From: Bacteroidia bacterium
GTDB taxonomy: Bacteria > Bacteroidota > Bacteroidia > M30B66
Assembly: GCA_018401705.1 (NCBI GenBank)
Contig: JAGYKL010000003.1
Location: forward strand, 1 to 64,000
DNA length: 64,000 nt
Direction: 5' to 3'
Positions 22,397 to 48,343 of the stretch are shown in pieces. Numbering within the stretch: position 1 is the stretch's first letter; the number at the start of each line of letters is the position of its first letter. A model generated the notes under the pieces. The model was given only the letters and a program-made list of their open reading frames with translations, was not told the DNA's origin and searched no databases. The position numbers and the translations under genes are program-made.

Positions 22397-25090
22397 TTAA
22401 AAGAGTTTCTTAAGTTTCTTCTTTGCCTCTTCTTCGGCTTTCTTCTTTGCTTTATCTGCCTCTTCTTTTGCTTTACGCTCAGCTTCGGCTTTTGCTTTAT
22501 CAGCTTCGCTTTTCAGGCGATCTTTTTCAGCATTGATTTTATCTTCAGCTTCTTTTTTGAGACGATCTTTTTCAGCATTTGCTTTGTCTTCAAGCTCCTT
22601 CTTACGTTTGTCGGCTTCTTCTTTTAAGCGTTGTTCTGCTTGATCTTTTAGATCGTTCATAGCGTTGCCTGCTGCCGATTTAATATCAGTGCTCACTTTA
22701 GGGTCGGTAAATGTACCAGTAACAAGAACTGAGACTGGAATTGTTTCACCAAGATTAGCATTAACACCTGCGGAGCTTGCTTTTGAAACCATTGAATTGA
22801 GAACTCCATTTGCCGCTCCACCAAACTCAGACCTTGGTATGTCAAGATTTATGGCGTATCTAATGCTTTGATCTAATCCGTTTGTCCCAGCAATTTCAGC
22901 AGGGAAATTTCCAATTTTAGTTTTGAATGGTTTCACAGAAACTTCTCCGTTTACAATAGAAAATTCTGCATTAACCGGCTCGAGTTTCCACTTTTCAAGC
23001 TTATTCATTTTGAGGGAGCCTGCTATCTTTTTAATCATTTCAAACCCTTCAATTTCCAAGGTTGAAGTGCTAAGTTTACCACTGCCATTAACAGTTTTCA
23101 TTATAGGATTAAAAGCTTTATCCGCCTTAAAGGCAAGATTGAAATTGCTTAAAGATGCCGTTCCAGTGGTGTTTTGAGCAATTGGGGCCAGCTTTTCAAC
23201 GGTATTAAATGCTTTTGCCGATTGTTTGATATTCATATTATTCATACCAAGATTCAGAGCAACTACAGGTCCGGTTTCATCTTTTGTATCGTACAATCCG
23301 CTCATAGTAATGATTCCGCCAAGGGTTGCCATGGAAATATCAGACATTCTGATAGCTTCATCTTGAACCTTCATACTGCCTTTTACATCAGAAAGTTCAA
23401 GATTATCGTAAATCAATTTCTTGAAATTAGCATTCAAAGTAAATCCAATGTTCTTAGGAATTCTAATATAGCCATCAACATCAGCCTCTGCAGCGCTTGC
23501 CGGAGTTTCGGTTGTTGTTTCTGTATCGGTCATGAAGGGATTCAAATCAAAATAGGAGCTGTTCAAATTTAGAACACCCTCAATTGGTTCATCCTTAAGT
23601 GCATAAGCCAGGTAATTGCTCAATTTTCCGTTGGCAGATAAGCTGCTTTTGCCTGTCATCATTGAGAATTGACTAAGATCAATAGATTGCGGACTAAAAC
23701 TCATATCGGCAGCTGTAATTCTTACTTGATCTTTCAGGTCTTTAGCTGCATAGAGGAAATCCTTTAATGAAGCAGAACCAGAAGCCTGGAACTTGTCGTA
23801 TTGCTCATTTTCAATTGCCGAAAGCCTTCCTGCGAAAGCAGCATCAGCATTTAAAACACCCTGAATTTTCATCCCTTCTTCAAGTGGCATAACATCTTTT
23901 AAACTAGCCAAATCAACGCGTCCTTTTACAGTGGCTTTCATATCAGGGTCAGACACAGGAGTTTTAACGTTTAACGTTGCATCAATTGGGAATTGACCAA
24001 GATCAACATGGAATTTTGAAACATCAACCACGGTTCGGTCGGCATCAACACCCGGACAAGTAATTGAAGTTTTTACCTGCATATTTGCGAGAGCTCGAGG
24101 AAGTGAGGGGTATTGAACATTTCCGTTTTCGATATTCAGGTTGAAAGCAAATCCCGGAATAGACTTCTCATTGTATTTGCCTTTTACGAAACCATTAAAA
24201 TCGAGCTTCCCAGATGACTTTACGTCTTTGAAATCTTCAGTGAAAGAGCCTGGAATTAACGAAATAAAGCTCTTAACTTCGTTTTTAACTGCTTCATAAG
24301 TAATATCCATATCGATATCATCACCAGGCATGGCAACAAATCCCGCGAAGCGAAGAACCAAGTCATTTACAGTAAGCTCATTCTCAAGAAACGAATATTT
24401 CGAGTTTTTTAAGTCAAGCGAAAACTGAGCATCATAATCTAGCTTCACCTTATTGAGATAGCTCACTCCTTCATAAGCTAAATCAAGCGCCTGAATATGA
24501 GTTTCAGTATCGAGGTTGGTTAAATCTGCCGTGAAATCGCCAGAGCCTTTGTGATTGAGATTTACGATTTTGGTATAAAATCCGAGTGATTTATCATCGT
24601 AAACGAGCTGAGTTTCAGAAATCTCATAACCCTGAAGTTTAGCCTTGAAGCTTGAAGGTTCTTCGGCAGCTGCACTTTCTTCTTCAGTTCCGCTCGGTTT
24701 AACAATATCCCAATTGGCAGTTCCATCGGCGAGAACCTTGAAATTCATATTGCCTTTTTCAATCCAAACCCGTCCGATTGAAATTTCGTCCTGAAAAAGG
24801 CCCATCAATCCGGTTGAAACGCCTAAAGAGCCTGCAGCAATTAGTGTATCGCCATTGAATTTGTCTTTTCCAACAATGCTCAAACCTTTGAGCTCAATAG
24901 AAAGCTTTGGGAAATGAGATAATAAGCTAATGTCTAAATCGTCAAAAGCGAGGGTGGCATTAAGATTCTTATTGGCTTCTTCTTTAACTTTAGCAATGAT
25001 TTTATCTTTAAAAACAAAAGGCAAAATAACAGCTGTTGCAATAAGCAGCAGAAGAATAATACCAGTGATTTTGAGTCCTTTTTTTAACAT
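22397..25090 (-). CDS. AsmA-family inner membrane-anchored periplasmic protein with charged helical tail
   Basis: 897 residues. One N-terminal membrane segment (ITGIILLLLIATAVILPFVF) leads into the AsmA N-terminal domain (ALAFDDLDISLLSHFPKLSIELKGLSI). Long beta-rich repeats follow, with AsmA C-terminal features near GLDQSIRYAINLDIPRSEFG. Large AsmA-like proteins are thought to form periplasmic grooves for lipid transport between membranes. Odd feature: residues 816-897 are a Lys/Glu/Ala-rich tail in 15-residue repeats, unusual for this family. It lies 18 nt after aroC and 14 nt before the OmpA-family gene, so it is probably co-transcribed. Confidence 0.88.
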   Translation of the reverse strand: MLKKGLKITGIILLLLIATAVILPFVFKDKIIAKVKEEANKNLNATLAFDDLDISLLSHFPKLSIELKGLSIVGKDKFNGDTLIAAGSLGVSTGLMGLFQDEISIGRVWIEKGNMNFKVLADGTANWDIVKPSGTEEESAAAEEPSSFKAKLQGYEISETQLVYDDKSLGFYTKIVNLNHKGSGDFTADLTNLDTETHIQALDLAYEGVSYLNKVKLDYDAQFSLDLKNSKYSFLENELTVNDLVLRFAGFVAMPGDDIDMDITYEAVKNEVKSFISLIPGSFTEDFKDVKSSGKLDFNGFVKGKYNEKSIPGFAFNLNIENGNVQYPSLPRALANMQVKTSITCPGVDADRTVVDVSKFHVDLGQFPIDATLNVKTPVSDPDMKATVKGRVDLASLKDVMPLEEGMKIQGVLNADAAFAGRLSAIENEQYDKFQASGSASLKDFLYAAKDLKDQVRITAADMSFSPQSIDLSQFSMMTGKSSLSANGKLSNYLAYALKDEPIEGVLNLNSSYFDLNPFMTDTETTTETPASAAEADVDGYIRIPKNIGFTLNANFKKLIYDNLELSDVKGSMKVQDEAIRMSDISMATLGGIITMSGLYDTKDETGPVVALNLGMNNMNIKQSAKAFNTVEKLAPIAQNTTGTASLSNFNLAFKADKAFNPIMKTVNGSGKLSTSTLEIEGFEMIKKIAGSLKMNKLEKWKLEPVNAEFSIVNGEVSVKPFKTKIGNFPAEIAGTNGLDQSIRYAINLDIPRSEFGGAANGVLNSMVSKASSAGVNANLGETIPVSVLVTGTFTDPKVSTDIKSAAGNAMNDLKDQAEQRLKEEADKRKKELEDKANAEKDRLKKEAEDKINAEKDRLKSEADKAKAEAERKAKEEADKAKKKAEEEAKKKLKKLF
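22400..22645 (-). repeat. 15-residue (45-bp) repeats coding the charged tail of the AsmA protein
   Basis: Five successive 15-residue units: the first is degenerate, the second and third are nearly identical (EDKANAEKDRLKKEA and EDKINAEKDRLKSEA), and the last two are DKAKAEAERKAKEEA and DKAKKKAEEEAKKKL. At DNA level the sequence CGATCTTTTTCAGCATT recurs with a 45-bp period (22518 and 22563 on the plus strand). Confidence 0.85.
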
Positions 25091-43432: not shown

Positions 43433-46400
43433 TTATTCAATCAAAGTAACTCTTCCTATCAACTGATCACTTTTTCTTAAAATATTGGTGTAGGTTACTC
43501 GCCAAACATAAACATCTTCTTGAGCAGGGTTTCCTTTGTAGGTGCCATCCCAGCCATTATTAGGGTCTGAAGAGGTATATAATAATTCGCCCCATCTGTC
43601 GAAGATTTCTAGTAAGAACTGATTCACGTAGGTTAACTTTATTTGAAAAACGTCATTTGTTCCATCGCCATTTGGCGTGAAGGCATTTGGTGCGTAAATG
43701 GTAGGGTAAGGGTCAACATCAAGATTTTTGCAAGTAAAATCCTCGCAGCCAAAAATGGTGCTTACTTTTAAACATGCACTGTAGCTGCCAGTGTCACTAA
43801 ATTCGTGTTCAGGGTTTTCAACTAGTGAAAAGAAACCGTCTCCGAAGGTCCAGTAAAATGAATCTGCCAAATCGCTCTCATTGATAAATCTAAACACTGG
43901 GTCCATAACGTCAACTTCGTCGGGTGTATACCTAAACCTAGCCTGAGGCAATGGATGCACTTCTACTGCTCCTTCGGCAGAAATAATTGCCTCACAACCA
44001 TAAACGTCTTCAATTAAAACGCTCACATCTTGTGATCCGGCTTCTGTAAAACAATGTTTTGGAACACTTTCTTGGGAATTATTATATCCTTCAAATGTCC
44101 ATTGATAATTCCCTATGGATGCAGTACTGCTGGGATCAAATGTGAAATTCACACATACGGGTGAGCAACCTTCGGTTTCATCAGGTATTATTGTTCCCGA
44201 GGGACTGAGTCTCATTAAAATCGATGTACTATCAACATCTTGACATCCTAGTACGTCTGTTCCTAAAGCAACATAAGTGGTTGAGCTATCTGGCGTATCA
44301 ATCAAAATCTCACCTGAATGTGAGAATGCTGGCCATGTAATATCCAAGTGTCCGGTGCCCCCTTCTACTCCTGCTTGGAGAATTATTTCTTTACCTTCAC
44401 AAACATAATCAGGTGCGTTAATAAATAGATGAATTTCTTCAGGTTGACTTAGATACATTGAAGAATTTGCGGTGCAACCATTTGAATCCACAACCGTTGC
44501 TGTGTAATTGCCGAATGGAAGAGAGTCAGCTAAAATGCCGTTTGCTCCATTACTCCAGCTTATTGCGAAAGGCGCCGTTCCTGTTGGGATTTCAGCCATG
44601 ATTGCTCCATTAGAGTATCCATAGCAGGTTATGGATTGAGTCATTTGAGTAGTAATACTCACATCTGGAATTGCAAGAGTTTGTATTAATGAATCAATTG
44701 AGCATCCATTGATATCTGTAACTGCTACAGTAAAACTTCCTGGAGGCAGGTCTGTGTAAAGTGTGTCTGAAGTTGGATATGCTCCATTGAATGAATACAT
44801 AAATGGTGCGGTTCCTCCCTCTATTCCAGTAATTGCGATTACAGAATTGTTCAATGAACAAGTCGCATCAATAGTTTCGGCAGTTAATGCACTCGGTCCA
44901 GGATATCGAATAATTAAATGTAGTGAATCAAGCATGCAATTATTGGCATCCTTCACTTGAATCATGTAATTACCTTCCGAAAGGTTGCTAAAACTTTCGG
45001 GAAAAGCACTTACAGGGTTAAAAACTGTATCGTTAAAGGCAAGAGATAATGGGGCTGTTCCACCTATAATAGTTTGTATGGCAATCTCACCATTATTTTC
45101 AGCACAAACCGCGTCTACAATTTCTGTGGTCATTAGACTAGGGAAACTTGGAGTAGCTAAAGTTGTAGAACGGCTATCTTGGCATTGTTGACTATCGCGA
45201 ATGAAAACCTCATAAACGCCATCATTTAAAGAAGAATACAGCATATTTGAACTCCATGCACTCGAATCTAATCTAAATGAATAAGGAGCAGTTCCGCCAA
45301 AGGCTGAGTCAACTTCAATTATACCATTAGCAAATCCACATATTGGATTTTGCTCATCAATTGAGAATTGTAGTATTGCTGGTTCTGTAATAACTAATGT
45401 GTCTCTATGTTCACATGAGTTAGCATCGATAGCTGTAACAATATAAGTTCCTGAAAGTAAAGATGTTATTAAAGAATCATTTTGCCCGCTAGACCAAGAG
45501 AAAGTGAAAGGTGCATCACCTTGAATAATTTCAGCATGAGCCTGACCATTGTTGAAACCAAAACAACTGGGATTAGCATCTGCGATTGCTACAACCACAA
45601 TAGAAGGAATTGATAAAACTGCAATATTAGTATCAAGAACACACTGATTTGAATCTCTTACCGAAATATTGAAATTACCTGGAGTGAGATTGTTGTAGGT
45701 GCTCAGATTAGAATAATTTCCGCCGTTTAGGCTAAACTCATATGGCGAAATACCTTCAGTTACATTATCAATTGAAATACTTCCATTTGATAAATTACAA
45801 GTACCGTCAACTACAGTTAGCTCAATAGCAGTAGGTCCAGCAAATTGAAGGATTTCTGTAGTTGTGTCAACTGAGCATCCGTTGGAATCTGTTATTGATA
45901 TTTGATAATTATCTTCAGGTAGAGAATCAAAAGTAGCCGGAAGTTCCATTGTTTGAGGAGTGTTTCCGTTAAATGATATAGAATAAGGCTCTACACCTCC
46001 AACTATACCATTTATTTGAACAGTTCCGTTACTTTGAGAGCAAGTTGCATCAATTGTTTGAAAATCCACTAAAGTGGGATATGAAATTGAGGTAAGTGAG
46101 ATAACTGTTGAGTCTGAGCACAAGTTTGCATCAGAAACAATTACTGTATACGAACCAGGGTTTAGTCCGTTGAAAATTGAATTTATACTACCCACTGCAC
46201 CATTTAAGCTGAATAAATAGGCAGGCGTGCCTCCGCTTACTTGAGTTATCTCAAGGCTAGCGTTAGCAAGGTTACAAGTAGCTGCAATCGTTTCTACTTG
46301 AAATGAAAGCTCTGCAGGTTGAGTAATTACAAAGTTTGTATCATGCATGCAACCAAACCTATCTGTAACTTCAAGCGAATAATTTCCAACCGATAGACTA

Positions 46401-48343
46401 GTTATTTCGGGTGATGTACTTCCTTGATTCCATAAATAATCAAAAGGGCCCCAGCCTATGGCATTAGCTTCAATACTTCCGTCTTGAGATTCATAGCAAC
46501 TTAAATTGCTTGATAAAGAGCTGAATATAACATCTGGCACTATTGTTATCATTGCCGTATCTGTTGCAATGTATCCATCGGCATCGGTTACAGTTACAGT
46601 GATTAGCTGATTTTGGTTGCTGCACACGGTAATAGAAGGGTCGCTGCTACCTGTTGACCAATTATATGTGTAAGGGGCAACGCCATAATTCATAGAAACG
46701 GGGAAATCGAGACATTCTCCAGGGCAGATAGTATCGCCGGTAATAGTAACTCTAAACACACAAGGAGGAACCACAATGTTTTGTGTGATTGTGTCGCTGC
46801 AGCCAAATCCACTTACAAGACTTAGGGTAACAGGGTAGGAGCCTGGGCCAGGGAAATTTGCATTTACAACCGCCTGATTGGCAGTTCCTGGAACACCAGA
46901 AGGAGCAAGATTCCAAAAGTAAGTCGCACCTGGCTCATTATTATCGGCCTGAAGTTGAACTGGCAAATCACATGCAGGAGCTTGATAAGTAAATGATGCA
47001 ACAGGTATTGGAGCAACGGTTATTGGCACTTGAAAAGTTGAAGTGCAACCGTTAAAAGCAGTTAAGTTAAGCGTGTATACAGTCGAAGCAGCTGGTGCAA
47101 CGGTGATAGATTGTGAATTGATGTTGCCAGGCTGCCAGTTATAGGTAGCATATCCATCAGGAGCAGTTAGAGTTACAGATTCTCCTGGGCAAATAGTATC
47201 AGCAAGAGCTGCGAGTGTTGAAGGAGCGCATTGTGCATCAATATAGGCATAACCATAATGTCCACCTTGACTGCAATCTCCAGCTGTAAATTCAACTGTT
47301 ACAGGTTGGCCGAGGTAATTGGATAAGTCAACATTAACCGTACTCCATGGTTTGTAGCGGACATTCCCTGTACAGCTAAAAAAACCAGGTAAGCTCGCTG
47401 CTGCAGAAACCACAAAGTCTGAACAAGGCACTACATCGCCATTTTGGTCTCTTAGCAATGCTCTAAAGAATGGTTGCTCTCTTGAAGTATGCCCTGGGTC
47501 TTCAAACACCACCGCATATCTATATGTAAAGCTAGAGTTTGACGGACTCACCATAAAGGTTTGCCGCAGTTGTTCTGCATCGGCTCCAGTATTGCTGTTT
47601 CCTAGTCGAACTGATGAAGGCCCCCCAAGCGGATCAACTCTTGGGAAACCAGCACATGGATCATTTCCACCAGTCATAATGGTGTGGCGGCCGTTAACTA
47701 CTCCAATACCTGTAATGCTATATGTTGGTGTTATTGCCCCAACAGGACCAGTAACTGAATTCCCGGTAGTTGCAATCCAACCGTTTAGGTTACCATCATT
47801 AAAATCCATATTGGTGCAAGCGGGTTGAACAGGCTCAGTAATCAAGCTACCTTCAAGGTCAAACTGAAAGCAATTCGCATAGTAGTTTGAAACAGTATAT
47901 GCATCAATTCCAATGAAATACTGAACTCCGGCTTGCACTGGATACACAATAGTAATTCCTGCATTATTCCATGAAGAACCTTGAGATGTTATCAGGCAAG
48001 CGTTAGGCGTGCCAGGGCAGCCTTCATAAAGTGACATGGTAGGATATGCGGTGCCAGATGCTTGAACGTCATCTAGAAGGATGTTTATGAATCCACTTGT
48101 ACTGGGAGTAAATGAATATAGCCAGTCTTGCCCACCATAAGCATTTCCCCAAGAAGCAGGCAAACATCCGTTAGCTCCTGTATAGTCGTTGCCATCGCCA
48201 CAAGTGCTTTGATTATTAAGATTGAAAGGTATGTTTAAGGGTGCTGAGGAAGCATCAGGACATGTGTTTCCCCCTTGTGCAATAACCTGCAAGCATAGAA
48301 TAGTACACAATAGTACAAAGAGAAACCATGTTTTTCCAGTCAT
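43433..48343 (-). CDS. Giant secreted adhesin with SprB-like repeats, PKD domains and T9SS type B (gliding-associated) tail
   Basis: 1636 residues. Signal peptide 1-22. A pre-peptidase-like jellyroll region at about 25-165 is followed by a MAM/jellyroll-like domain at about 175-372, an Ig-like region and a PKD-like domain to about 530. Residues 616-1305 hold nine SprB-like units of 74-82 residues, each opening with a Cys (C616, C690, C768, C849, C927, C1002, C1080, C1162, C1240). Two PKD-type domains follow at about 1385-1545 (YWTFGDGFFSLVENPEHEF). The C-terminal 90 residues (APNAFTPNGDGTNDVF, FDRWGELLY, DVYVWRVTY) are the type B sorting domain. Probable cell-surface adhesin; whether it serves gliding is not shown. 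Confidence 0.93.
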   Translation of the reverse strand: MTGKTWFLFVLLCTILCLQVIAQGGNTCPDASSAPLNIPFNLNNQSTCGDGNDYTGANGCLPASWGNAYGGQDWLYSFTPSTSGFINILLDDVQASGTAYPTMSLYEGCPGTPNACLITSQGSSWNNAGITIVYPVQAGVQYFIGIDAYTVSNYYANCFQFDLEGSLITEPVQPACTNMDFNDGNLNGWIATTGNSVTGPVGAITPTYSITGIGVVNGRHTIMTGGNDPCAGFPRVDPLGGPSSVRLGNSNTGADAEQLRQTFMVSPSNSSFTYRYAVVFEDPGHTSREQPFFRALLRDQNGDVVPCSDFVVSAAASLPGFFSCTGNVRYKPWSTVNVDLSNYLGQPVTVEFTAGDCSQGGHYGYAYIDAQCAPSTLAALADTICPGESVTLTAPDGYATYNWQPGNINSQSITVAPAASTVYTLNLTAFNGCTSTFQVPITVAPIPVASFTYQAPACDLPVQLQADNNEPGATYFWNLAPSGVPGTANQAVVNANFPGPGSYPVTLSLVSGFGCSDTITQNIVVPPCVFRVTITGDTICPGECLDFPVSMNYGVAPYTYNWSTGSSDPSITVCSNQNQLITVTVTDADGYIATDTAMITIVPDVIFSSLSSNLSCYESQDGSIEANAIGWGPFDYLWNQGSTSPEITSLSVGNYSLEVTDRFGCMHDTNFVITQPAELSFQVETIAATCNLANASLEITQVSGGTPAYLFSLNGAVGSINSIFNGLNPGSYTVIVSDANLCSDSTVISLTSISYPTLVDFQTIDATCSQSNGTVQINGIVGGVEPYSISFNGNTPQTMELPATFDSLPEDNYQISITDSNGCSVDTTTEILQFAGPTAIELTVVDGTCNLSNGSISIDNVTEGISPYEFSLNGGNYSNLSTYNNLTPGNFNISVRDSNQCVLDTNIAVLSIPSIVVVAIADANPSCFGFNNGQAHAEIIQGDAPFTFSWSSGQNDSLITSLLSGTYIVTAIDANSCEHRDTLVITEPAILQFSIDEQNPICGFANGIIEVDSAFGGTAPYSFRLDSSAWSSNMLYSSLNDGVYEVFIRDSQQCQDSRSTTLATPSFPSLMTTEIVDAVCAENNGEIAIQTIIGGTAPLSLAFNDTVFNPVSAFPESFSNLSEGNYMIQVKDANNCMLDSLHLIIRYPGPSALTAETIDATCSLNNSVIAITGIEGGTAPFMYSFNGAYPTSDTLYTDLPPGSFTVAVTDINGCSIDSLIQTLAIPDVSITTQMTQSITCYGYSNGAIMAEIPTGTAPFAISWSNGANGILADSLPFGNYTATVVDSNGCTANSSMYLSQPEEIHLFINAPDYVCEGKEIILQAGVEGGTGHLDITWPAFSHSGEILIDTPDSSTTYVALGTDVLGCQDVDSTSILMRLSPSGTIIPDETEGCSPVCVNFTFDPSSTASIGNYQWTFEGYNNSQESVPKHCFTEAGSQDVSVLIEDVYGCEAIISAEGAVEVHPLPQARFRYTPDEVDVMDPVFRFINESDLADSFYWTFGDGFFSLVENPEHEFSDTGSYSACLKVSTIFGCEDFTCKNLDVDPYPTIYAPNAFTPNGDGTNDVFQIKLTYVNQFLLEIFDRWGELLYTSSDPNNGWDGTYKGNPAQEDVYVWRVTYTNILRKSDQLIGRVTLIE
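44431..46498 (-). repeat. Nested SprB-like repeat array with a 312-residue super-repeat
   Basis: Nine Cys-started units arranged as A-B-B'-B'' twice plus a third A. Equivalent cysteines are 311-313 residues apart (C616/C927/C1240; C690/C1002; C768/C1080; C849/C1162). Linkers recur in the same order: QPAEL, YPTL, AGPTA, IPSI, then EPAIL, FPSL, PGPSA, IPDV, then QPEEI. Confidence 0.85.

Follow-up and report, generated by a model that had tools for sequence, protein, structure and literature searches.

How the repeat array of a large Bacteroidota surface protein came to have nine units, one unit at a time or by copying several units together, is the question raised by a gene on the minus strand of the window, the whole 64,000-nucleotide stretch analysed here. 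A sequence-only reading had proposed that a whole block of four units (about 936 bp), and not single units, was duplicated. Taken jointly, our results very probably describe a T9SS type-B surface protein in which an old four-unit tandem copy produced a stalk of fixed length. The features of the gene are collected in Table 1, where unit types A, B, C and D are the A, B, B' and B'' of that reading.

Table 1. Features of the array gene, with positions in the window and residues of the encoded protein
Feature	Positions	Strand	Residues	Basis or remark
Whole gene	43433..48343	minus	1636 aa	ORF; T9SS type-B cargo with Ig-bead array
Probable signal peptide	48278..48343	minus	1-22	hydrophobic N-terminus, from sequence reading
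N-terminal head	46754..48280	minus	22-530	conservation across orthologs
A0, divergent A-like Ig domain ahead of array	46517..46753	minus	531-609	type profiles
Unit A1	46295..46516	minus	610-683	Cys spacing, ortholog array comparison, unit tree
Unit B1	46061..46294	minus	684-761	Cys spacing, ortholog array comparison, unit tree
Unit C1 (B')	45818..46060	minus	762-842	Cys spacing, ortholog array comparison, unit tree
Unit D1 (B'')	45584..45817	minus	843-920	Cys spacing, ortholog array comparison, unit tree
Unit A2	45359..45583	minus	921-995	Cys spacing, ortholog array comparison, unit tree
Unit B2	45125..45358	minus	996-1073	Cys spacing, ortholog array comparison, unit tree
Unit C2	44879..45124	minus	1074-1155	Cys spacing, ortholog array comparison, unit tree
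Unit D2	44645..44878	minus	1156-1233	Cys spacing, ortholog array comparison, unit tree
Unit A3, lone unit closing array	44420..44644	minus	1234-1308	Cys spacing, ortholog arrays, unit tree
PKD-type domains	43709..44419	minus	1309-1545	PKD_4
CHU_C / Bac_Flav_CTERM T9SS type-B sorting domain	43436..43708	minus	1546-1636	Pfam and TIGR04131

Pfam searches of the 1636-aa protein returned SprB (E-value 9.5e-35), PKD_4 (2.4e-19) and CHU_C (3.2e-17). The SprB repeat (PF13573) matched in seven stretches, at 118 bits against a cut-off of 28, and the sorting domain was recognised at residues 1551-1626 by both CHU_C (62.9 bits, cut-off 27) and the NCBIfam model TIGR04131 (63.5 bits, cut-off 35). Judged from these domains, the protein is a predicted T9SS type-B surface protein. 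The host genome encodes the T9SS translocon (SprA_N, E-value 1e-168) and has eight PorP_SprF matches, none of them on the contig of the window (C23). Given the genomic SprA and PorP/SprF-type proteins, export and anchoring of the protein by the T9SS are plausible. The array gene is accompanied by genes for a formiminotransferase-cyclodeaminase, an esterase, a patatin, YqeY and FtsZ.

The array had earlier been labelled SprB-like. Like known SprB repeat arrays, among them that of the Flavobacterium johnsoniae gliding adhesin SprB, the protein has SprB units and ends in a T9SS type-B sorting domain, and the repeat-unit matches back the label to that extent. It differs from those arrays in being a protein of 1636 aa with nine units and with no PorP/SprF-type gene adjoining it in the window, and an adhesive or gliding function is not backed. 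Ahead of the array, unit-type profiles scored A0 as type A in all six orthologous proteins. Within the head, residues 115-153 have a weak similarity to CBM_4_9 that lies below the cut-off, while residues 172-375 gave no Pfam match above the cut-off; other proteins of the class contain the latter segment at about 40% identity. Elsewhere in the window, an AsmA-family ORF (22397-25090, minus strand) carries short tandem repeats of 21, 45 and 24 bp at its C-terminal end (22446-22650).

The nine units, of roughly 75-82 aa each, follow the order A1-B1-C1-D1-A2-B2-C2-D2-A3. Their initial cysteines stand at residues 616, 690, 768, 849, 927, 1002, 1080, 1162 and 1240 (window positions 46498 down to 44626), so that equivalent cysteines are separated by 311 (A1-A2), 312 (B1-B2), 312 (C1-C2), 313 (D1-D2) and 313 (A2-A3) residues, as had been read from the sequence. 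The second cysteine of each unit recurs after 312-313 residues, and when the protein is compared with itself without gaps the best offsets are 313 and 312, in agreement with the proposed super-repeat of 312 residues. Unit lengths from A1 to A3 are 74/78/81/78/75/78/82/78/75. The linker endings also recur in order, as claimed, with QP/EP..L after A, S-Y/F-P after B, GP after C and IP after D. The originally reported span of 44431-46498 fits the array, which in full occupies 44420-46516. At the DNA level, no residual tandem repeat was found between the blocks.

Within the window protein, identity is 30-36% between equivalent units and about 26% between units of unlike type. Among all 362,880 orders of the nine units, the observed one had the highest lag-4 score, with ties only from equivalent orders (p = 0.0008, the lowest value that nine units allow). 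The same minimum was reached in three of the five orthologs described below, and the remaining two gave 0.003 and 0.013. A harsher test, in which flanking PKD-like domains were added and the score was maximised over all lags, gave p = 0.075 for the window protein and a range of 0.06-0.14 for it and three orthologs; there was no lag-4 peak in two orthologs. Since this single-protein test is only suggestive, the strength of the case rests on the unit tree from six species.

A search of 40 relatives yielded five full-length orthologs, all from the same family and about 50% identical to the window protein. The formiminotransferase-cyclodeaminase gene adjoins all five, and YqeY-FtsZ lies on the other side in four, which is wherever the contig reaches. 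No ortholog was found in four further genomes of the family, two of which are listed as 100% complete, and presence of the gene is thus patchy. All six proteins have the nine-unit array, with unit lengths equal within one residue. Among 295 genomes of the class, only the family's own orthologs scored above 1100 bits in a search for other A-B-C-D carriers; the next best match, at 348 bits, does not have a full nine-unit A-B-C-D array, and no single-block ancestor was found. On other arrays, the unit-type profiles mostly called units 'A' or 'B', and three of these arrays (L104-L106) show a similar A-B-B-D-like order. From these comparisons, the A-B-C-D array as such appears to be peculiar to this group of orthologs.

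In a tree built from 54 units, those of the window protein and its five syntenic orthologs, each of the types A, B, C and D formed a single clade (support 100/98, 91/90, 88/83 and 94/88, respectively). Grouping of neighbouring units, which the sequence-only reading had named as the outcome that would speak against it, was absent from the tree. AU tests rejected such groupings as well, both for three units (B1+C1+D1, p = 0.0003; B2+C2+D2, p = 0.001) and for pairs (C1+D1, p = 0.001; D1+A2, p = 0.0006; B1+C1, p = 0.02). The type clades and the AU tests together uphold the proposal that a whole four-unit block was duplicated. As an account of how the array was built, the proposal holds for the last expansion, while types B, C and D must have arisen before it through duplications of single units.

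Alternatively, the array may have grown by single units, with a four-unit order that goes back to position-specific selection, under which units adapted convergently to adjacent units or linkers, and not to common descent. The type signal is indeed strongest in the linker columns: it comes from both core and linker in A and largely so in C, whereas in B and D, which are inseparable on core columns alone, most of it comes from the linker. A tree of core columns nevertheless recovered the A clade and most of C, and all columns together recovered all four types. Convergence moreover conflicts with the AU rejection of neighbour groupings and leaves the occurrence of the same order twice without a reason. 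Clear recent four-unit copies are also present in two other arrays (L120 and L106, described below). We therefore regard convergence as quite unlikely, and block duplication as the preferred explanation.

We next considered the age of the block duplication. Units at the same position in different orthologs are 39-44% identical, same-type paralogs 32-36% and unlike types 26-28%. Because same-position orthologs are closer than same-type paralogs, the duplication is older than the species split. Identity at third codon positions between paired blocks is 0.32-0.41, compared with 0.31 expected by chance, and this near saturation likewise indicates an old event. Contiguous DNA identity between blocks, the sign of a recent event, was absent, which argues against recent copying and is not at odds with an old event, as none would be expected to remain. 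Read from these sequences, the last expansion is the copying of a block of about 936 bp that predates the split of the three carrier genera, in line with the earlier description of the repeat as old.

Equivalent positions could also be alike because gene conversion between the blocks has continued, in place of one old duplication. One unit fits this, as the C1 unit of the window protein falls within the C2 clade and not beside C1 of the orthologs (99/96); its placement may reflect local gene conversion in this lineage or a long-branch error. For all four types, however, orthologs at the same position resemble each other more closely than the paralogous blocks do, which excludes wholesale homogenisation, and with third codon positions near saturation conversion can have touched single units at most. 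Ongoing conversion as the source of the pattern is thus extremely unlikely, and an old duplication remains our reading.

Copies of four units also occur in other SprB-type arrays. In the family of the window itself, L120 (G005:C103:24000-36000) contains a four-unit tandem copy with a period of 903 bp and an exact match of 877 nt; this copy is very recent, unless it is an assembly artefact. L106 has a four-unit repeat of 311 aa with 86% DNA identity and L104 one of 307 aa with 62%. To judge by these identities, four-unit copying is also seen at younger ages in the three arrays.

Such recurrence raises another explanation, in which SprB-type filaments favour a structural period of four units, such as a single turn of a superhelix, and duplications of four are therefore selected across the phylum. 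Four-unit repeats recur in L104/L105, L106, L111, L117, L118 and L120, most of which came from a query of period 4 and are a biased set. A survey took in 74 arrays from the class and the phylum, selected through their Pfam matches to SprB. At p < 0.01, 15 of these had a neighbour peak and 21 a multi-unit period, in a sample that is not independent (several arrays per genome or family) and favours long ORFs with strong Pfam matches. The multi-unit periods comprised two (three arrays), three (five), four (six), six (one), seven (five) and nine units (one). Although a period of four accounts for six of the 21, the survey shows it to be common and not special, and the idea that four units are special was rejected on this basis. 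We consider a preferred period unlikely. Less likely still is a quantised higher-order filament period fixed by filament geometry, with four beads here and seven in another group of long arrays, in which growth would proceed only by whole superhelical steps.

Longer super-repeats were seen in several other arrays. Four arrays (L178, L191, L192 and L193, in genomes G400, G396 and G373) have a seven-unit super-repeat of about 570-600 aa in frames of about 2,800 to 5,700 residues, with z values of 7 to 12, a signal above that of any surveyed four-unit array. A Bacteroidia protein of 6525 aa (L043 8001-14555, JAUHXA010000019.1) has a six-unit super-repeat, with a lag-6 identity of 59% against a mean of 35%.

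The growth of the array by block duplication can be laid out as follows. The state before the copy would have been A-B-C-D-A or similar. Tandem copying of four units (~312 aa, 936 bp), presumably by ordinary homologous recombination or slippage between repeats, then gave A-B-C-D-A-B-C-D-A before the three carrier genera diverged. Unequal crossing-over between two A units would be the simplest route, as it leaves exactly one extra A at the end. The mosaic of A1 and A3 in A2 expected from crossing-over inside A was in the right direction and not significant (p = 0.18), and the exact recombination boundaries have been lost. After the copy, unit number and lengths stayed unchanged, whereas the sequences of the units diverged until orthologs were about 40% identical.

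This mode of growth is an ordinary one, and the duplication of domains in blocks is already well known (PMC1553488). In domain-repeat proteins, the copying of several domains at once is reported to be commoner than that of single domains, with a copied unit of one to nine domains (PMC1553488). Bjorklund, Ekman and Elofsson (2006) recognise multi-domain copying by a peak of similarity between domains more than one position apart (PMC1553488). The array studied here resembles the repeats of that study in that several domains were copied internally together. That work centres on eukaryotic families, whereas ours is a bacterial SprB-type array in which an old copy is fixed across genera.

AlphaFold2 (AF2) models show uniform beta-sandwich beads for A0-A2 (mean pLDDT 85.8, pTM 0.42) and beta-sandwich beads for the whole array (mean pLDDT 83.6, pTM 0.29); with an alignment of six rows and these pTM values, bead orientations are not readable. 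Good local confidence with low pTM is as for a flexible chain. The nearest solved structures were the Ig arrays of the Aureispira grappling-hook protein GhpA (PDB 9flp, 9fly and others), found by Foldseek, VIA-align and a sequence profile (E-value 3e-39). The profile that reached GhpA was built from six rows, and a single-sequence phmmer search against the PDB found nothing real. The repeats are homologous and of Ig type, but GhpA is a hook protein of 5898 residues and the window protein has 1636, of which only the repeat part was compared.

Across the orthologs, the array has three gapped columns in about 700 at an identity of 37-45%, whereas the head is 55-78% identical, with its maximum and that of the whole protein at residues 172-375 (78%), and the sorting domain is 71% identical. 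This low identity with hardly any indels, set between a conserved head and a conserved sorting domain, suggests a spacer of selected length. The array is thus most likely a fixed-length, sequence-tolerant stalk of Ig beads between the N-terminal head and the T9SS anchor. It would keep the head off the outer membrane, with selection acting on total length and unit phase rather than on surface sequence. Disulfides, bead geometry and the role as a stalk are inferred. The earlier claim of structural constraint is only partly shown, by unit lengths that are frozen within one residue in six orthologs at about 40% identity.

While the mechanism itself is already known, the analysis puts a date on one step in the growth of a surface stalk in Bacteroidota. 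It also indicates that SprB-type arrays often expand in multi-domain blocks, given the 21 of 74 with a significant multi-unit period. The six orthologs offer a clean case in which unit number and length hold constant as the sequence drifts, so that the spacer hypothesis can be tested.
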